NCBI RefSeq assembly: GCF_028368935.1
Contig: NZ_JAQNDK010000001.1
Span: 2,604,001 to 2,668,000, forward strand
From: Sorangium aterium
Lineage (GTDB): Bacteria; Myxococcota_A; Polyangia; Polyangiales; Polyangiaceae
Length of the DNA stretch: 64,000 nt
Direction of reading: 5' to 3'
Positions 1,317 to 42,932 of the stretch are shown in pieces; within the stretch, counting starts at the first letter, position 1, and each line of letters opens with the position of its first letter. The position numbers and the translations under genes were made by a program. Under the pieces are notes generated by a model, which was given only the letters and a program-made list of their open reading frames with translations, made no database searches and was not told the DNA's origin.

Positions 1317-4300
1317 TCAGAGCTTCGTCTTGACCTCTTCGATCTCGAAGCTCTCGATGATGTCGCGCTCCTTGATGTCCGAGTAGCCCTCGAGCGAGAT
1401 ACCGCACTCGAACCCCTCGACCACCTCTTTCACGTCATCCTTGAACCGGCGCAACCCGGACAGGCGACCCGTCCAGACCACGGCGTTGTCCCGGATGAGG
1501 CGCGCCTCGCCGGTGCGCTTGACCGAGCCGCTGATGGCCATGCAGCCGGCGACCGTGCCCGCCTTCGTGATCTTGAAGACCTGGCGGACCTCGGCGCGGC
1601 CGAGGACCTTCTCCACCTTCGTCGCGGGGAGGAGTCCCTCCATCGCGCTCCGGATGTCGTCGACGGCGTTGTAGATGATGTTGTAGAGCCGGATCTCGAC
1701 GCCCTCGTTCTCGGCCAGAGCGCCCGCCTTGCCGGCCGGCCGGACGTTGAAGCCGACGATGATCGCCTTCGACGCGACCGCCAGGTTGACGTCGCCCTCG
1801 GTGATGCCGCCGACGGCGCCGTTCACGATCGTGACCTTCACCTTCTGGGTCGAGAGCTTCGCCAGCGCGTGGATGATCGCCTCGACCGAGCCCTGCACGT
1901 CGCCCTTGATGATCAGCTTGAGCTCGAGCTGATCGGCCTCCTGCAGGTTCTTCGTGATGGACTCGAGCGAGACGCGCGAGTCCTGCGGGATCAGCGTCTT
2001 CGACGCCTTCTTGCGCCGGGTCTCCGCGATCTCCTCCGCGGTCTTCCCGTCCTTGACGGCGTGGACGGGATCACCCGCGCTCGGCACCTCGTTGAGGCCA
2101 AGGACCTCGACGGGCGTCGCGGGGCCGGCCTCGGCGACGGAGCGCCCGAGCTCGTCGGTCATCGCCCGGACCTTGCCCCACGCGGCGCCGGCCAGGAGGA
2201 TGTCGCCCGTGCGGAGCGTGCCGTCCTGGACCATGACGCGCGCGACCGGGCCGCGGCCACGATCGAGCAGCGCCTCGATGACGGTGCCGCTGGCGCGCTT
2301 CTTCGGGTTGGCGCGGAGGTCCTGGACCTCGGCGAGGAGCAGGACCGACTCGAGGAGCTGCTCGATGCCCTGCCCCATCTTCGCCGACACGCTGCAGAAC
2401 ATCGTCTCGCCGCCCCACTCCTCGGGCTGCAACCCGAGCGCGGCGAGGTCGCGCTTGATCTTGTCGGCGTCGGCGCCCGGCTTGTCGATCTTGTTCACCG
2501 CGACGATGATCGGCACCTTCGCGGCCTGTGCGTGCGAGATCGCCTCCTTGGTCTGAGGCATCACGCCGTCGTCGGCCGCGACCACCAGGATCACGATGTC
2601 GGTGAGCGAGGCGCCGCGGGCGCGCATCGCCGTGAACGCCTCGTGGCCCGGCGTGTCGAGGAACGCGATCGTTCCGCGCGGCGTCTCGACGCGGTAAGCG
2701 CCGATGTGCTGGGTGATCCCGCCGGCCTCTCCCTCGGCGACCGTGGCCTTCCTGATCCTGTCGAGGAGCGAGGTCTTGCCGTGGTCGACGTGGCCCATGA
2801 CGGTGACGATGGGCGGCCGGATCTCGACCTCCTCGTCGGTTTCGGCCCCGGCCTGCATGGCCGCGGTCAACGTGTCCTGCTCGCTGACGGCCACGTCCTC
2901 TACGCTCCAGCCGAACTCGCTGGCGAGGATCTTCGCGGTCTCGGCGTCGAGCGTGCTGTTGATGTTCACGCCCGTCATGCCCATCGACAGGAGCCGCATG
3001 AGCACGTCCGTCGCCTTCAGGCTCATCTTCGCGGCGAGCTGCTGAAGCGTGACCTGCTCCTCGATCTTGATGACCTTCTTGTGCGAGGCCATCTCCTGCG
3101 TGGAGACCTGGACCGGCTTGCGCGGGAGCCCGCCTCCCGGGCGCGGCCGCCCGAACATCCCCGGGCGAGTGTTCCGACCGCCCATGGGCCGGCCGCCCGG
3201 ACCGAAGCTGGGACCACCAGGGCGCGCTTGCTGGGCGTTGGCGCGCGGATCGTAGGTCGTGCGCCGCGCCGGCGGTGTGCCGGTGCGGGCAGCCGGCATC
3301 GTGACGCCGGGGCGCCCCTGCCATACCTCGATGCCGGTCTTCGGCGGCGAGGACGGGCGGCGCGGCGCCTGTCCCGGCGTGCCGGCCGGCTCTTCCGGCT
3401 TGGCCGCGGGGGTCGACACGGGCGGCGTGGTGGGCCGAGTGCCCGGGCGGGCCGCGGCCGGAGCCCCGGACCGCTGCGGCGCGGGCGGCGGCGACGTCGG
3501 CCGCGACGCCCCCTGCGCCGGAGCGGGCGCCGAGGGCGCGGCTTGCGGCCGGGCCGGCGCCTGCGCCGCGGCTGCTGCGGGAGCAGCGGCTGCTGCGGCA
3601 GGCGCGGTTGCTGCGGGCGCTGCGGCAGGCGCAGGCGCTGCGGCAGGCGCTGCTGCGGGCGCCGCTGCTGCGGGCGCTGCGGCAGGCGCAGGGGTCGGCG
3701 CGGGCGCGGCCGCCTGCGCGGGGGCGGCTGCAGGCGCCTCGGGCGCGGCCGCCACGGGGGCGGGCGCCGGTGCGGCGGCGGTGGCAGGCGGCGCCGCGAC
3801 AGGCGGCGCAGGCTTCGGCTCGGGCGAGGTCACCTTCGTCTCCTCCGCGGCCGCGGACGCCGCGGCAGGCGCGGTTGCTGCGGGAGCGGGAGCCGCCGGG
3901 GGCGGCGGCGCTGGGGGCGCAGCCGCAACAGGCGGCATCGCCGGGGCAGGCGCAGTGGGCGCGGGTGCGGGAGCAGGCTCGCGCAGGCTCGCGGCGACGA
4001 CCGGCTCGTGGGCCGGCGCCGAGGGCGCTGCGACGGGAACGGCGGGCGGCGGCGGAGCGGGGCGACGGGGCGGCGCTTCTTCCTGAACGGCGCGCTCGCG
4101 CGGCGGCGAAGCCGGAACGGACACAGCCGCAGGCCGAGAGGGCGCAGGCTCCGGAGCAGCGCGAACGGGCGCCTCCGACAGGTCAGGCCCGCGGCCCGGC
4201 GAGGACGGCTCGGGCTCGGCCCCAGGCCGGGCGCGGCGCTTCACGACCGTGGGGCGGATCCTCTCCTCCACCACCTCGGGCGACTTCTGCCGCTCGAGGT

Positions 4301-35956: not shown

Positions 35957-36709
35957 ATGTTCGCCTCGGCGTTTCCGCTGCTGCTCCTCGGCTTCTCTCT
36001 GGGAATGCGCCACGCGACCGACGCGGACCATGTGATCGCGGTGGCGACCGTCGTGAGTCGGGTGCGGAGCCTCGGGACGGCGCTGATGATCGGCGCGATG
36101 TGGGGCGTCGGCCACACACTCACGCTGATGGTGATCGGCGGCGCCATCCTGCTCTTCGGGCTCGTGGTGCCGCCGCACGTCGGCCTGGCCATGGAGCTCA
36201 CCGTCGCCCTGATGCTGATCGGCCTCGGGGTGTTCCACCTGGCGCGGCTCTACCGGGCGGTCCGCCGGGGCGAGCCGCCGGCCCACGACGTTGCTCCGGT
36301 GAAGCATGTCGCTCACCACGACGGCCACCGGCACGACCTCGGCTGGGCGGATCGCGTGTTCGGCGGCTCGCGCGTCTATGCGAGCCTGCGGCCGCTGCTC
36401 ATCGGCGTGGTCCACGGCCTCGCGGGCTCGGCCGCGGTGGCGCTCCTCGTGCTCACCACGGTGCGCGACCCGCGGTGGGGCATCGGCTACATCGCGCTGT
36501 TCGGCGTGGGCACGATCGCCGGAATGACGCTCATCACCGGGGTGCTCGCGCTGCCGTTCGCCTATGCGCGCGCTCGCACCAGCGGGATTCACAACGCCTT
36601 CGGCGCCGCCGCCAGCCTCCTCAGCGTGGGCTTCGGCCTGTTCCTGGCCTACGACATCAGCTTCGGGTCCGGGCTGTTCACTGCCCACCCGCAGTGGACG
36701 CCAGGCTGA
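35957..36709 (+). CDS. NiCoT/UreH-like metal transporter family protein
   Basis: 250 residues with about six membrane helices. The first helix region has LGMRHATDADHVIAV, the H-x4-D-H signature of nickel/cobalt transporters (HoxN/NixA) and their UreH relatives. The second signature region, GVVHGLAGSAAVALLVL, and a cytosolic His-rich loop (KHVAHHDGHRHDLG) fit metal handling. No urease or hydrogenase genes are nearby, so Ni versus Co cannot be told; the UreH-like subgroup is plausible from length. Inner membrane. Start ATG 35957; no strong ribosome site. Confidence 0.85.
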   Translation: MFASAFPLLLLGFSLGMRHATDADHVIAVATVVSRVRSLGTALMIGAMWGVGHTLTLMVIGGAILLFGLVVPPHVGLAMELTVALMLIGLGVFHLARLYRAVRRGEPPAHDVAPVKHVAHHDGHRHDLGWADRVFGGSRVYASLRPLLIGVVHGLAGSAAVALLVLTTVRDPRWGIGYIALFGVGTIAGMTLITGVLALPFAYARARTSGIHNAFGAAASLLSVGFGLFLAYDISFGSGLFTAHPQWTPG

Positions 36710-36755: not shown

Positions 36756-37514
36756 TCACCGGCTCGCGGTCGACCAGGCGCGCTCGGCCTCGCGCTGCGG
36801 CGCCGGCGCGAGGTGCGCGTCGATCTGGGTCATGAGCCAGTCGAGGAACTCGTCCTTCAGGATCGTTTGCGCCACGTGCAGATCGGTCCAGACGGGCGCG
36901 CGCGCGGCCGCGCGGTCGCTCGTCTGCACCACGACCGGGATCGTGCAGAACCTCGCGTCGTCGCGCATCGCGCGGATGAACTCCACCCCGTTCATGACGG
37001 GCATGTGGACGTCCACGATGGCCAGCGCCACGGGCTCGCGCGCGAGCAGCTCGAGGGCGTCGCGCCCGTTCTCGGCCTCGAGCACGCTGAAGCGCGGCTC
37101 GAGGATCAGCCGGTAACACTCCCGGATGTCCGCGTCGTCGTCCACGACGAGGATGGCGACCCCCTCGACGGCGCCGAGCACGCGCTCGACGGCGGCGCGG
37201 AGCTCCCCCGCGGTGACGGGCTTGCGCACGTAGCCGGCGACCCCTCGCAGGATCGCCTCTGCCGGCTTGTTCACGACGGAGACGAGCATCACGGGCACCC
37301 GCTCGCGCGACTGCACGAGCCGGTTGAAGGCGAAGCCATCCATCTCGGGCATCAGGAAGTCGGCCAGGATGAGGTCCGGCGTCCACGTCCGGAGCAGCTC
37401 CAGCGCCGCGCTCCCGCCACGCACGGTCCGGACGTCGTACGCCGCGCCTTGCAGCGCCTCGGCCATCCACGCGAGCGTCCCCGAGTCATCGTCGACCAGC
37501 ATGAGCTTGGCCAT
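36756..37514 (-). CDS. Double-receiver response regulator
   Basis: 252 residues made of two receiver domains and a short tail, with no DNA-binding or enzymatic output. Receiver 1: VDDDSGT, Asp52 (ILADFLMPEMDG), Lys98 (VRKPVT). Receiver 2: VVDDDADI, Asp168 (AIVDVHMPVMNG), with the C-terminal Lys displaced (ILKDEFLDWL). It starts four bases after the histidine-kinase stop and is the last gene of the GTPase/OmpA operon. It probably receives phosphate from that kinase and relays it to another protein or acts by protein contact. Confidence 0.9.
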   Translation of the reverse strand: MAKLMLVDDDSGTLAWMAEALQGAAYDVRTVRGGSAALELLRTWTPDLILADFLMPEMDGFAFNRLVQSRERVPVMLVSVVNKPAEAILRGVAGYVRKPVTAGELRAAVERVLGAVEGVAILVVDDDADIRECYRLILEPRFSVLEAENGRDALELLAREPVALAIVDVHMPVMNGVEFIRAMRDDARFCTIPVVVQTSDRAAARAPVWTDLHVAQTILKDEFLDWLMTQIDAHLAPAPQREAERAWSTASR

Positions 37515-37518
37515 GGCA

Positions 37519-38661
37519 TCACTCCCCTTGCGCCCCGCCGCCGCCCGCCTCGCCCGCGGCGCCGACGCGCCGCAACCGGAGCCAGAACCTCGCCCCTCCC
37601 TCCGGCCGCGCCTCGTACCCGATCGCCCCGCCCCACCGCTCCACCGCGATCCGGGCGCCGTAGAGCCCGAGGCCGCTGCCCGCGCCGGGGTCGCCGCCGT
37701 GCGCGAACTTCTGGAACAGGCGCGGCGCGATGGCAGGCGAGACGCCAGGCCCGTCGTCCTCCACCGTCACGCGAGCCCAGCTGGCATCGTCGTGCACGGC
37801 GACCCGCACCGACGCGCGCGCGGGCGTGAAGCGGAGCGCGTTCTCGACGAGGTTGGAGACCACGCGCGCGAGCCTGCGCTCCTCACCGACGACGGCGCAC
37901 GGCTGCGCGCGGCCGATCTCCGGCGGCGCGTCCAGGCGCACCCCCCGGCTGCGCGCCATGGGCAGGAGCGCCTCGACGACCCGGGCCACGGTGCCGCGCA
38001 CGTCGACCACCGCGGCGAGGTCGCCGCTGGAGGCGTCGGACGCCATGCCCTCGGCGGTGAACACGTCGAGGATCTCCCGGATCAGCTCGCGCTGGCGCAG
38101 GGCGGCCTTCAACGCGACCGCGGCGAGCGCGCCGCTCTTCTCCGGGAGCGGCTGCTCTCCCAGCAGGGACAGCGCGCCGAGGAGGCTGTTCAGCGGGCCG
38201 GAGAGGTCGTGAACGATGCAGTGGACGAGGACGTCCTTGCGCTCGACCTCGCGCGACAGCGCCTCGTGGACGAGGCGAAGCTCGCGCGCCCGCTGGAGGA
38301 CGCGGCGGCGCTCCTGGAACAGCGCGTCGTTCCGGGTGATCACGAGCAGCCGCGACGCGCCCACGCGGAGCGCCGTCGCCTCGAGGTGGAGCGCCTCGTC
38401 GTCGCCGATCATCTGCGTCCAGAAGTCGGACTGCACGCTCGGCGCTCCTTCCACGGACCAGGCCCGCTCCGCCTCGGCGAGGAACACCTCCAGAAAGGGC
38501 AGCGCGCGATCGATCGAGAGCGGCGAGTCGCGCCACGGCGGCGCGAACCCGAGCCGGCGGAACCACGGCGGCGGCTCGCCGCGGATGACGAAGGTCCCGT
38601 CGTGCAAACGCTCGAGGACGAGCTTGTCCAGCGCCGCGAGGAGCCACGTGTCCACGTCCAT
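37519..38661 (-). CDS. Soluble sensor histidine kinase
   Basis: ATG 38661 overlaps the GTPase stop by one base (TGATG), so translation is coupled; 380 residues. The N-terminal 130 residues have a PAS-like pattern (LHDGTFVIRGEPPPWFRRLG, FLEVFLAEAERAWSVEG, ALHLEATALRVGASRLLVIT). The kinase core has an H box (VHDLSGPLNSLLGALSLL), N box (RVVSNLVENALRFTP), G1 (VEDDGPGVSP), F and G2 (GAGSGLGLYGARI). No membrane helix. The HDLSGPLN H box is of the HPK subfamily with a serine-glycine in place of the common hydrophobic residues. It likely phosphorylates the downstream double receiver. Confidence 0.92.
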   Translation of the reverse strand: MDVDTWLLAALDKLVLERLHDGTFVIRGEPPPWFRRLGFAPPWRDSPLSIDRALPFLEVFLAEAERAWSVEGAPSVQSDFWTQMIGDDEALHLEATALRVGASRLLVITRNDALFQERRRVLQRARELRLVHEALSREVERKDVLVHCIVHDLSGPLNSLLGALSLLGEQPLPEKSGALAAVALKAALRQRELIREILDVFTAEGMASDASSGDLAAVVDVRGTVARVVEALLPMARSRGVRLDAPPEIGRAQPCAVVGEERRLARVVSNLVENALRFTPARASVRVAVHDDASWARVTVEDDGPGVSPAIAPRLFQKFAHGGDPGAGSGLGLYGARIAVERWGGAIGYEARPEGGARFWLRLRRVGAAGEAGGGGAQGE

Positions 38662-39182
38662 CAACCCCGCAACGAAGGCGCTTCGCTCGCCAGCATGGCG
38701 CGCGTCAGCGCGTTGAACGCGCCCTCGACCCCGGCGCCGGTCTTGGCGCTCGCCCTCGTGATCCAGAGGCCCGCCCTCCTCAGCCTGGCCTCGATGGCGT
38801 CGTCGATCTCCCACGCCGCGGTGAGATCGGCCTTGTTCAGGACGACGACGGCCGGGACCTCTCCGACGATCGTCCGCGCAGCGGTGTAGAGGCGGAGCCC
38901 GGTCTCCGCCGTGAGGCGCCGCGTGCCGTCGATGACGAGGAGCCAGCCCGCGGAGCCGCGCAGGTACGACGTCTGGACGGCCTGGAACTCGTCCTCTCCG
39001 CTCAGATCCCAGAGGATGAGGTCGAGCTCGCCTTCATCGCATTTCACGCGCCGTGCCTCGATCGTCACGCCGATGGTCGTCCGGTAAGAGTCGGAGAAGA
39101 TGCTGCGCACGAAGCGGGCGACGAGGCTTGTCTTGCCGACCCCCGTCGCGCCCAGCACGCAGACCTTGCGTCTCTCCGCCAT
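38661..39182 (-). CDS. Rab/Ras-like small GTPase
   Basis: 173 residues, a complete small G domain: P loop GATGVGKTS (11-19), switch-I Thr in SYRTTIGVTIEARRV (36), switch-II WDLSGEDEF (58-66), NKAD (116-119) and SAK near residue 143. The layout WD-x-x-G-[QE] with a YRTTIGV switch I is Rab-like, more than MglA-like. The catalytic Gln is replaced by Glu63, so intrinsic hydrolysis may be altered. No C-terminal Cys for lipidation. It begins three bases after the OmpA-protein stop and overlaps the histidine kinase by one base. A molecular switch controlled by, or controlling, its operon partners is inferred. Confidence 0.92.
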   Translation of the reverse strand: MAERRKVCVLGATGVGKTSLVARFVRSIFSDSYRTTIGVTIEARRVKCDEGELDLILWDLSGEDEFQAVQTSYLRGSAGWLLVIDGTRRLTAETGLRLYTAARTIVGEVPAVVVLNKADLTAAWEIDDAIEARLRRAGLWITRASAKTGAGVEGAFNALTRAMLASEAPSLRG

Positions 39183-39185
39183 GAC

Positions 39186-40964
39186 TCAGTCCTTGCTCTC
39201 GGCGCGCAGGTCCACAAGGAAGATCACGCTGCGCGCGCGGCGCTCGTCCGCGCCGGCGAGGCACCTGGCCCCGGCCGCGCCCCCGGAGCAGGACGGGGGC
39301 AGGAGCTCACGCCGCAGTCCACCGCCGCTCGCTCGCAGGCGATCCGCCGGGATCCCCCGCGCAGCGAGCTCGGCCGCGACGTGCTCCGCGCGGGCCTGGC
39401 TGAGCGCTCGATTCGACGCCTCCGATCCGGCGGAGTCCGCGTAGCCGATCTCGCGGATGTCGGCGGTCATGCCGGCCTCGCGCGCGCGCGCGATCAGCCG
39501 CAGAGCCGCGGCCGCGACGGCGTCGATGCGCGCGGCCTGCTCGCCGGAGAGCCGCGCGGCGCCGCGGCGGAAGAGGAGCTCCATCGCCTCGAGGGCCCGC
39601 GCCGCCGCGCGCGCGCGGTCGATCGACTCCTGGGCCGTCAGGCGCTCGCCGTCGAACCCCGAGACGCCCGGGAGCACCGCCGCCGACCAGCGCGCGCGCT
39701 CGATCCAGCGCTCGGGCGCGACCCCGCTGGCCACGACGACGCCGCCGCGCAGCGCCAGGGCGACCCCGGGCGGCGGCTCCAGCATGCGCGCCACCCTGCG
39801 CTCGACGATCTGCGGGTGGAGCGAATAGAAGGGCTCGAAGCGCAGGGCGACCCCCGGGGGCACAGGGCCGCCGCGCTCGAGCACGACCCTCGGGTCCGCG
39901 GCGAGCGGATCGCGGAGCCCCGTGAAGGCGACCTGGCCGGCGCGCCGCTCCGCCGCGGTGACCAGCAGGCCGGGCTCGCGCTGCAGCGCCTCGTCCCAGC
40001 CCTCGAAGCGGCGCTGATCCTCCTGCGAGGCGCGCACCCGGAAGACGAGCGCGGTCGCGACGACCCCGGCCAGCACCGCGGCCGCCGCGAGCAAGGCCCG
40101 AGCTCGGCGCGGGACCGGCTGGCGTTGCTGCTGGAGGCAGCGCGAGAGCAGCTCGCGGGCGCCCGAGAACGGCGTCCGATCGCCGCGGAAGCCGGCGAGC
40201 TCACCGCCGTACGCGAGGTGGACGCGCTCCAGTGTCTCGCACAGGACGAGCCCGTACGCGGGCGGCGCCACGCCGCGCACGATGGACACGAGGAGCGCCG
40301 ACGGGCCGTGCTCGACCCACCCTGTCAGATCGCCGACGCGGAAGCGCTCCAGCTGCGCGTCGGTCCGGAACGCGTCGTGGGCGAACGCGTCGATGGCGGT
40401 GAGCATCGCCGTGACCTGATCGGGATCCCTGTAGGGGATCTCGTCGGCGCTGAGGTGCTCGAGGACGAGCCCCGTCCCGCGGTGGACAAGGAAGAGCTGC
40501 TCGGTCCGGTAGACCATCGAGCGGAGGAGCACCACCTCCGCGAAGGGGCGCCCCGTTCGGCGCGCCTCGACGCGCCAGCGCACGCTCCGCCAGGACAGGC
40601 CGAGGGCGGCCGCCTCGTTGAGGCGCTGGATCATCGCCCGGAGAGCGCAGCGCACGGCCTTGCGGATGGCCGGCCCCATGGCGGGGGAGATCGCGTCCGC
40701 GAACGATCCCGGGTCCCGGCGCACGCGCTCCTCGATCGCGCCGGTGAGGAGCGGCTCCAGCGCCCACGAGAGCGCCTCGCCCTTCTTGCGGCTCTCGATC
40801 ACCGCCTCGGGCAGCGCCCCCGCGACCATCTCGACCATCGACTGGTCGAGCCGCTCCTCGATCCGCTGGATCCGGTGCTGCTCGGGGCCCACGAGCAGGG
40901 GGCGGAGGTCTTCGAGCGTCTGTTTCGGCGGAGGCGCCCCGCGTCGCGCTCTCGGCTCTCGCAT
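39186..40964 (-). CDS. Transmembrane protein with large cytosolic domain and periplasmic OmpA domain
   Basis: 592 residues. Residues 15-270 form a soluble N-terminal domain with strong motifs (DLRPLLVGPEQHRIQRIEER, ALPEAVIESRKKG, ISPAMGPAIRKAV, LSWRSVRWRVEA, FAEVVLLRSMVYRTEQLFLV, HRGTGLVLEHL). One helix at 289-308 (ALLAAAAVLAGVVATALVF) leads to a periplasmic region with BON-like strands. A C-terminal OmpA/MotB domain at about 470-590 (ADIREIGYADSAGSEASNRA, LSQARAEHVAAELAARGIP) binds peptidoglycan in other proteins. From memory, the N-terminal motifs match OmpA-family proteins of cyanobacteria and others found near small GTPases. It likely bridges the cell wall to the cytosolic GTPase. It starts 54 bases after the coiled-coil gene. 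Confidence 0.88.
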   Translation of the reverse strand: MREPRARRGAPPPKQTLEDLRPLLVGPEQHRIQRIEERLDQSMVEMVAGALPEAVIESRKKGEALSWALEPLLTGAIEERVRRDPGSFADAISPAMGPAIRKAVRCALRAMIQRLNEAAALGLSWRSVRWRVEARRTGRPFAEVVLLRSMVYRTEQLFLVHRGTGLVLEHLSADEIPYRDPDQVTAMLTAIDAFAHDAFRTDAQLERFRVGDLTGWVEHGPSALLVSIVRGVAPPAYGLVLCETLERVHLAYGGELAGFRGDRTPFSGARELLSRCLQQQRQPVPRRARALLAAAAVLAGVVATALVFRVRASQEDQRRFEGWDEALQREPGLLVTAAERRAGQVAFTGLRDPLAADPRVVLERGGPVPPGVALRFEPFYSLHPQIVERRVARMLEPPPGVALALRGGVVVASGVAPERWIERARWSAAVLPGVSGFDGERLTAQESIDRARAAARALEAMELLFRRGAARLSGEQAARIDAVAAAALRLIARAREAGMTADIREIGYADSAGSEASNRALSQARAEHVAAELAARGIPADRLRASGGGLRRELLPPSCSGGAAGARCLAGADERRARSVIFLVDLRAESKD

Positions 40965-41018
40965 CGTTCTTCTCCAGACCGCCGCGCTCGCTCCGCCGGC
41001 CGGAGCGGCGCGGCCGCC

Positions 41019-41603
41019 TCACGCGGCCTCGTCCGAGCGGCGCTCCGCCTTCTGGTACCGCTCCGATTCCGCCGCCGCCTCGCGCGGCGCCGCCGCGATC
41101 GCGTCGGCGCCGTCGGCCCACACGGCGGCCAGCTCGCGCTCGAGCATCGCGCTGAGCTCGCTCCGCGTGCGCCGCGTCTCGTCGAGGAACGATTTGGACT
41201 GATCCAGCAGCTGTTGCCGGAGCTCGCGCTGCGTGCGCGCCACGAGCTCCTCCAGCCGTTGGACCCGCTGCGCGATCAGCTCGAGCGCCTCCCGCGACTC
41301 GCGCGCGACGCTGCCGAGCGCGCCGTCGGCGGCCACGCGCTGGGCCTCGATCGACGCGTTGAGCGCCTCGACCTCGCTGCGCATGTGCGCCTCCAGCATG
41401 TCCAGACGCCGCCGCGCTTCGCTCCGCAGCTCCTCCGCCTGGGCGGCGACCTGAGCGTCGGTGTGCGAGAGCCGGCGAGCGAACTCGCGGAACTGGGCGC
41501 CGCACAGGATGTCGCGCACCTGCTCCAGGCTGTTGGTGATCGCGGACTCTGCGTGTCCTGCGGCGGCTTCGTGCTCCGCCCGCCCGCTCGTCCTCATGGT
41601 CAT
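41019..41603 (-). CDS. Coiled-coil protein of the GTPase/OmpA operon
   Basis: ATG 41603 is chosen for a strong upstream GGAGAGGGGGG; the frame is open further. The 194-residue product has a short N-terminus and the motif ILCGAQFREFARRLSHTDAQ. A long heptad-type coiled coil follows (AAQAEELRSEARRRLDMLEA, HMRSEVEALNASIEAQ, QRVQRLEELVARTQRELRQQ) with a final [20 protein letters not shown] block. From memory, similar proteins with a 'FG.Q.RE...R' start occur beside OmpA-domain proteins in cyanobacteria. First gene of the five-gene operon; probably a cytosolic scaffold. Function otherwise unknown. Confidence 0.8.
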   Translation of the reverse strand: MTMRTSGRAEHEAAAGHAESAITNSLEQVRDILCGAQFREFARRLSHTDAQVAAQAEELRSEARRRLDMLEAHMRSEVEALNASIEAQRVAADGALGSVARESREALELIAQRVQRLEELVARTQRELRQQLLDQSKSFLDETRRTRSELSAMLERELAAVWADGADAIAAAPREAAAESERYQKAERRSDEAA

Positions 41604-41915: not shown

Positions 41916-42932
41916 ATGCGAACTCCGCGAACCTCGCTGGTAGCCGCGGCCTTCCTCGCCGCCTGCGGCGCTCCTTCCGCGAGCGCTCCGGCCGGCGGCG
42001 CTCCTTCCGCGAGCGCGCCAGCCGGCGGCGCTCCTTCCGCGAGCGCGCCAGCCGGCGGCGCTCCTTCTGCGAGCGCCGCCGCCTCGGGTTCCAGCTCGCC
42101 CCCGGCCTCCCCGCCGCCGCCCGTCGCGCAGACCGCCGCCCCCGCGGCCGCGGCCTCCCCTGCGCCGGCGCCCTGCGGCGCGCTGGGCTGCCTCGCCTTC
42201 GATACGCCGGCCCAGGCGTTCGCCCACGTCCTCGAGAGCGGCCCGCGCGTGCTCGCGGTGGGCGAGGCGCACGCACAGCGAGGCTCGGAGGGCATCCCCT
42301 CGACGACCCGGCGCTTCACGGAGCTCTTCCTGCCGGCGCTCGCCGGCCGCGCATCCGACCTGATCGTCGAGCTCTGGGCCGTGGATCCGCGCTGCAGGAA
42401 GGAGCAGGTGGCGCGGGTCGAGGCGGAGCAGCGGGCGGTCACGCAGGGCCAGGCGGCGCAGAACCAGGACGAGTTCCTCGCGCTCGGCCACGCTGCGAAG
42501 CGGCTCGGCATCCGGCCCCACCAGCTCACGCCCTCCTGCCAGGAGGTCGACGCCATCGTGCGCGCGGGGCCGGACGCGGTGACGGCCATGCTCGAGATGA
42601 TCGCGCGCCTGACGGCCGCCGAGGCGAAGGCGCTGCTCGGCCGCGAGGACGCCGCGGGAAAGATGGTGATCGCCTACGGCGGGGCGCTGCACAACGACGT
42701 CGCCCCGCGCCCTGGGCGCGAGCGCTGGAGCTTCGGACCGGAGCTCTCCGCGATCACCGGCGGCAAGTACGTGGAGCTCGATCTCATCGTCCGCGAGTTC
42801 ATCAAGGAGTCGGAGTCCTGGCGAGCGCTGCCGTGGTATCCCCACTTCGACAGGGAGAAGCACCCGGACAAGGCGGTGCTCTTCAACCCCGCGCCGGGCT
42901 CGTACACGCTCATCTTCCCCCGCTCGTCCTGA
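41916..42932 (+). CDS. Lipoprotein with TIKI/ChaN-like domain
   Basis: 338 residues. The signal VAAAFLAACG has a lipobox (LAAC). A linker of four 10-residue repeats (GAPSASAPAG) and more Ala/Pro/Ser follows. The domain at about 95-335 has VLAVGEAHAQRGSEG, a GExH motif, and a second GxxH-type motif in MVIAYGGALHND. Together they resemble the TIKI/TraB/ChaN/EreA superfamily of His-rich esterase- or protease-like proteins. ChaN members bind heme or iron and others are esterases or proteases, so activity cannot be assigned. Cys pairs (CGALGCLAF) may form a disulfide. Envelope lipoprotein, standing alone between the GTPase operon and the MbnP/MbnH operon. Confidence 0.75.
   Translation: MRTPRTSLVAAAFLAACGAPSASAPAGGAPSASAPAGGAPSASAPAGGAPSASAAASGSSSPPASPPPPVAQTAAPAAAASPAPAPCGALGCLAFDTPAQAFAHVLESGPRVLAVGEAHAQRGSEGIPSTTRRFTELFLPALAGRASDLIVELWAVDPRCRKEQVARVEAEQRAVTQGQAAQNQDEFLALGHAAKRLGIRPHQLTPSCQEVDAIVRAGPDAVTAMLEMIARLTAAEAKALLGREDAAGKMVIAYGGALHNDVAPRPGRERWSFGPELSAITGGKYVELDLIVREFIKESESWRALPWYPHFDREKHPDKAVLFNPAPGSYTLIFPRSS
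41967..42086 (+). repeat. Four 30-bp coding repeats (GAPSASAPAG)
   Basis: Three perfect or near-perfect 30-bp units and a fourth variant (GAPSASAAAS), directly after the lipobox Cys of the TIKI-like lipoprotein. They encode a flexible spacer and are a likely site of length variation. Confidence 0.85.

Follow-up and report, generated by a model that had tools for sequence, protein, structure and literature searches.

A putative Rab-longin switch in a Group 1 Rup gene set of Sorangium aterium

What does a Rab-like small guanosine triphosphatase (GTPase) do in a bacterial gene set, between a membrane protein with an OmpA domain and a two-component pair? The question is raised by five adjacent genes in a stretch of 64,000 nucleotides from Sorangium aterium (RefSeq assembly GCF_028368935.1, contig NZ_JAQNDK010000001.1, positions 2,604,001 to 2,668,000; hereafter the window), which encode, in this order, a coiled-coil protein, the OmpA protein, the GTPase, a histidine kinase and a double receiver. 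The five genes form a signalling system of the Group 1 Rup kind, already described as a gene neighbourhood. We tentatively propose, at somewhat below an even chance, that it represents a bacterial Rab-longin switch, in which a Rab-like GTPase, an adjacent membrane-anchored longin regulator and a modular effector domain feed into kinases, cyclic di-GMP (c-di-GMP) enzymes, cyclases and transcription. The conserved core consists of the predicted longin-like domain, the membrane anchor and the GTPase, while the periplasmic part and the output vary. As for mechanism, we consider it most likely, at about even odds, that the longin-like membrane platform determines which nucleotide the GTPase carries, and that the GTPase in turn acts on a PAS-like domain of the output enzyme.

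A described neighbourhood and its conserved core

As described by Wuichet and Sogaard-Andersen (2014; PMC4316618), Group 1 Rup GTPases are Rab/Ras-like proteins without the catalytic Gln of the G3 motif. Their neighbours are a coiled-coil protein and a protein in which a domain of unknown nature is often accompanied by a transmembrane helix and OmpA domain; the output protein, either a kinase or a diguanylate cyclase/phosphodiesterase, has an invariant glutamine in its N-terminal part, and the worked example is a sequence from Sorangium cellulosum. That description rests on gene neighbourhoods without experiment, at a time when no Rup had been characterised. The passages on the family in two later citing papers (PMC4915359, PMC13015309) state no function for it, and our literature search retrieved no functional study of Group 1 Rup systems and none joining longin, OmpA and Rup. 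An earlier note on this DNA had called the coupling of a eukaryote-like GTPase with a two-component pair unusual and knew of no functional description; the coupling had in fact been described in 2014 with the Sorangium example (PMC4316618), and in the actinobacterial conservon, too, a small GTPase is coupled to a kinase.

The window set follows the description closely. Its GTPase is a single-domain member of the Ras superfamily with all five motifs (G1 GATGVGKTS, T36, G3 WDLSGE, G4 NKAD, G5 SAK), keeps the G3 aspartate and has Glu (E63) at the position of the catalytic Gln; by sequence its closest matches in the PDB are a Thorarchaeal Rab and Rab23. Only MglA lacks the G3 aspartate in the 2014 account (PMC4316618), so that by this definition the window GTPase is not an MglA. 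Beside it lie a coiled-coil protein (judged as such from sequence) and the protein with the unknown domain, transmembrane helix and OmpA domain, and the output protein bears an N-terminal glutamine, Q123, which we infer to be the invariant one of the 2014 paper. Shared as well are the genus of the example and the kinase or GGDEF/EAL outputs. Compared with the text of that paper, figures aside, the window set differs by adding a double receiver. New here are predicted folds for both formerly unknown domains, the cytosolic part of the OmpA protein and the output N-terminus, and a range of outputs that the same text does not name: class III cyclases, HD-GYP proteins, sigma-54 activators and hybrid kinases.

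Eight of the 59 genomes searched (S. aterium included) encode a long homologue of the OmpA protein, and so do four of the five other genomes of the genus. All seven relatives with this homologue keep the order coiled coil, OmpA, GTPase, kinase, so the association is not due to chance; in five of them the double receiver comes next after the kinase.

A search profile built from the cytosolic part of the OmpA protein (OmpA-N) was then the basis for choosing places. It matched in 16 of 377 Myxococcota genomes (17 places), 11 of 247 Acidobacteriota genomes and 9 of 247 genomes of the order of Paraglaciecola. The earlier note had proposed counting co-occurrence of this N-terminal part with the GTPase, and the count is high: a GTPase on the same strand and at most 1 kb downstream of the OmpA-N frame is present in 34 of 37 places (Myxococcota 16/17, Acidobacteriota 9/11, Paraglaciecola order 9/9). 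The misses comprise a marginal match that was not recovered on repeat (L112; 8.4e-4), a locus with a GTPase-GGDEF pair about 3.8 kb off in a different order (L121) and an OmpA-N locus in which no GTPase was found (L116), the last of which speaks against the proposed pairing.

Starting from the GTPase profile instead, a search of genome contigs hit 38 loci, which belong to Myxococcota, Zetaproteobacteria, Gemmatimonadota, Acidobacteriota, an Acidimicrobiales metagenome-assembled genome (MAG), Alteromonadaceae and one Asgard archaeon. OmpA-N lies directly upstream in 34 of the 38, two or three of which have a split OmpA frame; the other four are two contig edges (L042, L044), a Gemmatimonadota locus (L055) and the archaeon (L070). 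The sets chosen by OmpA-N and by the GTPase overlap, sharing at least L037, L050, L057, L061 and L068, and repeated fetches (L099/L037, L100/L068, L126/L061, L124/L055) were excluded from the counts over 63 and 62 distinct loci given below. The pair also occurs on plasmids of Mesorhizobium, Rhizobium and Nostoc, and further plasmid matches were seen in Legionella adelaidensis and Spirosoma; the viral contigs searched held no relative of the OmpA protein. Apparent natural fusions of GTPase and OmpA protein were rejected as overlapping frames in GC-rich DNA. As separate observations, two Rab-like GTPase genes stand in tandem in two Acidobacteriota genomes and one Gemmatimonadota genome (L117, 6480-6971 and 7106-7612; L123, 4102-4599 and 4626-5123; L059, 5290-5781 and 5992-6477), and the Hermodarchaeum genome (L070) has 31 matches to the GTPase profile.

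Co-occurrence extends to the coiled-coil protein, as the earlier note had also suggested checking. This protein has no Pfam family above cut-off, and a homologue (E<=1e-5) lies in 41 of 62 distinct loci, always on the same strand and at most 600 nt upstream of OmpA-N. Because this comparison was run with no low-complexity filter, the similarity may partly reflect coiled-coil composition. The two ends of the system are less constant. Near full-length relatives of the double receiver (receiver residues D52/K98 and D168/T198/K220), among 64 loci including some fetched twice, come only from Sorangium, Polyangium and one further Myxococcota family, which by sequence comparison places this protein outside the conserved core. 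By the same kind of comparison the peptidoglycan-binding domain is outside it too. Four of eight OmpA-protein homologues scanned matched the OmpA domain, one of them slightly below the Pfam cut-off; those without a match are from two Zetaproteobacteria, one member of the Acidobacteriota and one of the Acidimicrobiales. In the Acidimicrobiales MAG (L058:5105-5992) the OmpA-type protein consists of the cytosolic domain and a transmembrane helix, and ends there.

A shared output domain and the missing catalytic glutamine

The first 150 residues of the kinase were modelled with AlphaFold2 (mean predicted local distance difference test, pLDDT, 84.8; predicted template-modelling score, pTM, 0.71) and show, in the predicted model, a fold with PAS topology running into one long helix. 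Its structural matches are PAS chains of the LOV, FixL and PYP types (Foldseek prob ~1.00, best E 1.2e-3; VIA-align Z 8-9, near the range that this tool grades as middling), and a profile comparison found no similarity to the ordinary PAS set of Acidobacteriota kinases. Among 32 unique PAS-like domains W33, A64, W68 and A97 are invariant, Q123 is kept in 31 and R126 in 30. Q123 sits on the long helix, 28 residues before the phospho-acceptor H151, and on a heptad reading it would lie on the exposed face.

This domain is not confined to kinases of the window type. Of the 63 distinct loci with enough sequence, 42 have it downstream of the GTPase, fused to histidine kinase (HK), HK-REC, HK-REC-Hpt, PAS-PAS-HK-REC, sigma-54 activator, GGDEF alone, HD-GYP or GGDEF-EAL modules. 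Zetaproteobacteria, rhizobia and some Myxococcota have class III cyclases headed by a related domain. Profiles of the PAS-like and cyclase N-terminal domains align with Prob 88.3 (E 2.9e-6, 110 columns; five controls at Prob 1.0 or less), and with four extra sequences chosen by eye Prob is 84.7 (ten controls <=4.1) with the glutamines aligned; the first, narrower alignments of the kinase and cyclase domains had given Prob 28.4.

In the remaining 21 of the 63 loci no PAS-like domain was detected downstream, which weighs against a general role for it. Four of these (Nostoc, L109, L110, L122) show by eye a comparable glutamine motif below threshold. A GGDEF protein (L108) lacks the motif, in nine Acidobacteriota loci a kinase with a PAS domain of ordinary type lies upstream instead, and a Gemmatimonadota locus (L055/L124) holds an open reading frame (ORF) with an RraB domain in the output place; these cases likewise count against the scheme. 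The other six are L042, L043, L044, L058, L070 and L123.

Three loci are of separate note. In an Acidobacteriota locus (L045:1-3656) a PAS-HK-REC-Hpt kinase (by Pfam) and a sigma-54 regulator lie upstream of coiled coil, OmpA protein and GTPase, and no output domain was found downstream. One kinase (L115:5429-6940) carries a cyclase-type and a kinase-type glutamine PAS-like domain in tandem, after a single GTPase. A second GTPase copy in one Paraglaciecola genome (L125:4286-5851) is paired with a PAS-like-HD-GYP protein, with no OmpA-N in the 10 kb around it.

By its distribution, the PAS-like domain is the best candidate for the effector domain of the GTPase. The earlier note had wired the two-component pair into the same switch: the kinase does belong to the system, its place in the order being kept in all seven relatives, and outputs of at least seven kinds, this pair among them, occur in that place.

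The conserved glutamine also admits a different reading. In the proposal of Wuichet and Sogaard-Andersen (2014), the invariant glutamine of the output domain would replace in trans the one missing from the GTPase, the output N-terminus acting mainly as a GTPase-activating protein (GAP) and the OmpA protein mainly as an anchor. In 74 unique GTPases the catalytic position is Glu in 51, Ile in 11, another residue in 11 and Gln in one; this absence of the catalytic Gln from 73 of 74, the retention of Q123 and its probable exposure on the helix are what the proposal would lead one to expect. The sole Gln-bearing GTPase, that of the Acidimicrobiales MAG (L058), has no PAS-like domain detected beside it, which agrees as well. 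However, the nine Acidobacteriota loci have the same Glu GTPase and an upstream kinase whose PAS domain carries no such glutamine, and we know of no GAP in which the glutamine sits on a coiled-coil helix. We regard the proposal as rather unlikely in this form; glutamine in trans and a platform-switch mechanism can both hold together. A general pairing of Gln-bearing GTPases with outputs lacking the PAS-like domain was considered and dropped, since L058 is its sole case and the Acidobacteriota contradict it.

A predicted longin-like domain and a candidate mechanism

Hydropathy marks a single strong transmembrane segment in the OmpA protein. Because an Arg-rich stretch stands just ahead of it, the N-terminus is probably cytosolic and the protein probably resides in the inner membrane. 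The cytosolic part has no Pfam match, and scattered weak matches among the other 29 members disagree. When the OmpA-N profile was run against PDB sequences, its matches stayed at chance level (best E 0.36). We modelled residues 10-295 with AlphaFold2 from 30 aligned sequences. Model residues 132-273 show a helix-bb-a-bbb-a-a topology, which includes the second C-terminal helix of a longin. The first 50 Foldseek rows are almost all MglB, Roadblock, TRAPP, Mon1-Ccz1, Rag/Ragulator, GATOR and adaptor longin chains (prob 1.00, E 1.7e-4 to 2.3e-3, TM-scores by target length mostly 0.4-0.7), and longin SNAREs also appear among the Foldseek and VIA-align matches. VIA-align ranks longins first: TRAPP 2j3t_D (Z 13.8, root-mean-square deviation (rmsd) 2.6, 124 aligned), Fuzzy-Inturned (Z 13.3, rmsd 2.5, 123 aligned) and Mon1-Ccz1 (Z 12.5, rmsd 3.1, 131 aligned), followed by MglB (Z 10.4, rmsd 2.6-2.7, 104-105 aligned). 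The cytosolic domain is thus predicted to have a longin fold, of the class of Rab exchange-factor subunits and related to MglB.

Several points weigh against this assignment. It comes from one AlphaFold2 model of low confidence (mean pLDDT 67.8, pTM 0.51), with ten-residue pLDDT means within the domain from 57, in the central helix, to 96. Ahead of the first strand stands a short helix (model residues 132-140), a feature of Roadblock domains. A profile comparison with 25 Roadblock sequences gave Prob 2.5. Since the profile comparison lent no support, the fold is a prediction and homology to longins a conjecture.

That leading helix, together with the place of MglB at the head of the Foldseek list by E-value (1.7e-4), would suit a domain of the Roadblock or another profilin-like type, with the system as a distant relative of MglA/MglB. 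Longins differ from Roadblocks by an extra C-terminal helix instead of an N-terminal one (PMC10933270), and eukaryotic longins have been proposed to derive from MglB-type Roadblocks (PMC3521125). Here the longin alignments (Z about 11-14, 110-133 residues) reach model residue 267-274 and cover the last helix, whereas the MglB alignments stop short at 247-249. The GTPase, moreover, keeps in 74 of 74 unique sequences the G3 aspartate that only MglA lacks (PMC4316618). We hold a Roadblock identity to be unlikely.

On the longin reading, the inner-membrane OmpA protein would present its longin-like domain to the cytosol, where a dimer of that domain may form a docking platform for the GTPase, as TRAPP and Mon1-Ccz1 do for Rabs and MglB for MglA. 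The state of the envelope, read through the peptidoglycan-binding domain (in which D510 and R525 presumably make the peptidoglycan contacts), might alter how the platform loads or unloads nucleotide; a guanine nucleotide exchange factor (GEF), a GAP and a scaffold are each compatible with this role. GTP-bound GTPase would then bind the kinase, at its PAS-like domain and signalling helix, and alter its autophosphorylation, and the phosphoryl group might pass to the two receivers of the double-receiver protein. In other lineages the same switch would drive a different enzyme bearing the PAS-like domain.

The earlier note had given the OmpA protein two tasks. That it works with the GTPase is very probable, because of the adjacency in 34 of 37 places and the predicted longin-like cytosolic domain. 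Peptidoglycan sensing is weakened as a general rule because half of the homologues scanned have no OmpA domain, and it is still plausible in the window system.

Signals might also run the other way, as proposed for the conservon, with the kinase as input and the GTPase and its membrane partner as output. The double receiver would then do to the GTPase what RomR does to MglA, or work alongside it as FrzZ does alongside MglA. A kinase with a sensor-type PAS-like domain and no clear transmembrane segment would suit such a flow, and so would a dual receiver without output domain, which we take to resemble FrzZ. Precedents in the conservon, RomR and FrzZ are given in PMC4316618. The kinase's place is held elsewhere by a second-messenger enzyme or a sigma-54 activator, that is, by outputs, and the double receiver does not belong to the conserved set; both make a reversed flow distinctly unlikely. 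That the neighbours share a promoter and no pathway is very improbable, given adjacency across several phyla with output enzymes swapped and the GTPase-OmpA pairing constant.

If the platform switch is correct, a pairing of longin GEF and Rab exists in several bacterial phyla, as against longins arising only from archaeal Roadblocks, and a combination usually deemed a mark of eukaryotes and Asgard archaea sits in a bacterial operon, where its origin is directly testable. It would also mean that one GTPase switch module is wired to many classical bacterial outputs. The longin prediction lends the unknown domain a concrete function that can be tested, that of a GTPase platform (be it a GEF, a GAP or a scaffold), and with the PAS-like domain shared among outputs the GTPase gains a concrete candidate effector.

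Gene layout and known systems

The source genome comprises 13.47 Mb in 7 contigs. Translation bore out the earlier note's layout of five minus-strand genes, each an ORF without internal stop, with gaps in gene order of 54, 3, -1 (one base shared) and 4, and its family names (Rab/Ras-like GTPase, OmpA, histidine protein kinase, REC) were recovered by Pfam. The ORFs most resembling flanking genes, one of 250 aa ending at 36709 and one of 338 aa starting at 41916, are on the plus strand; because they point the opposite way, a single transcription unit for the five genes is plausible. Elsewhere in the window, a weak Arf-family match (2346-2801, minus strand) falls within an open frame of 1048 aa, probably a larger GTPase.

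Table 1. Genes and domains of the Group 1 Rup set, in window coordinates.
Feature	Position	Strand	Basis and remarks
Gene 1, coiled-coil protein, 194 aa	41019..41603	-	Translation; no strong hydrophobic segment
Gene 2, OmpA protein, 592 aa	39186..40964	-	Helical N-terminus, predicted longin-like domain, transmembrane helix, periplasmic OmpA domain
Predicted longin-like domain, gene 2 residues 141-282 (model residues 132-273)	40119..40544	-	AlphaFold2, Foldseek, VIA-align
Transmembrane helix, gene 2 residues 290-308	40041..40097	-	Hydropathy 2.53 over 19 residues
OmpA-like peptidoglycan-binding domain, gene 2 residues 476-550	39315..39539	-	Pfam OmpA 1.7e-9
Gene 3, Rab-like small GTPase (Group 1 Rup), 173 aa	38661..39182	-	Pfam Ras 8.5e-28; G1-G5 motifs
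Gene 4, histidine kinase, 380 aa	37519..38661	-	Pfam HisKA 3.9e-7 and HATPase_c 7.6e-25; H151 phospho-acceptor
Predicted PAS-like domain and signalling helix, kinase residues 1-149, with Q123	38215..38661	-	AlphaFold2, PAS-fold matches; candidate GTPase effector domain
Gene 5, double receiver, 252 aa	36756..37514	-	Two Pfam Response_reg stretches; no output domain

Three known systems invite comparison. With MglA/MglB the set shares a small GTPase, a partner of the longin/Roadblock structural class and a link to response regulators. In contrast, the G3 Asp is missing from MglA, and its partner MglB is soluble and of Roadblock type, whereas here the partner is a membrane protein with a predicted longin-like domain. 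No MglB (Roadblock) gene lies within four genes of the window GTPase; the only Robl_LC7 match in the genome adjoins an Arf-family match on another contig.

The actinobacterial conservon (Cvn/Mfp) likewise combines a kinase, a small GTPase and a partner in one operon. Its GTPase, however, is an MglA of Group 2 accompanied by an MglB homologue, and its kinase and partner proteins are others; among the five proteins of the window set there is no Pfam match to an MglB-type Roadblock.

The eukaryotic longin Rab GEFs (TRAPP core, Mon1-Ccz1, Fuzzy-Inturned and BLOC-3) share with the window set a longin fold, here predicted, beside a Rab-like GTPase. The bacterial counterpart differs from them as a single transmembrane protein with a periplasmic domain, and its likeness to them comes from predicted structure, not from sequence.

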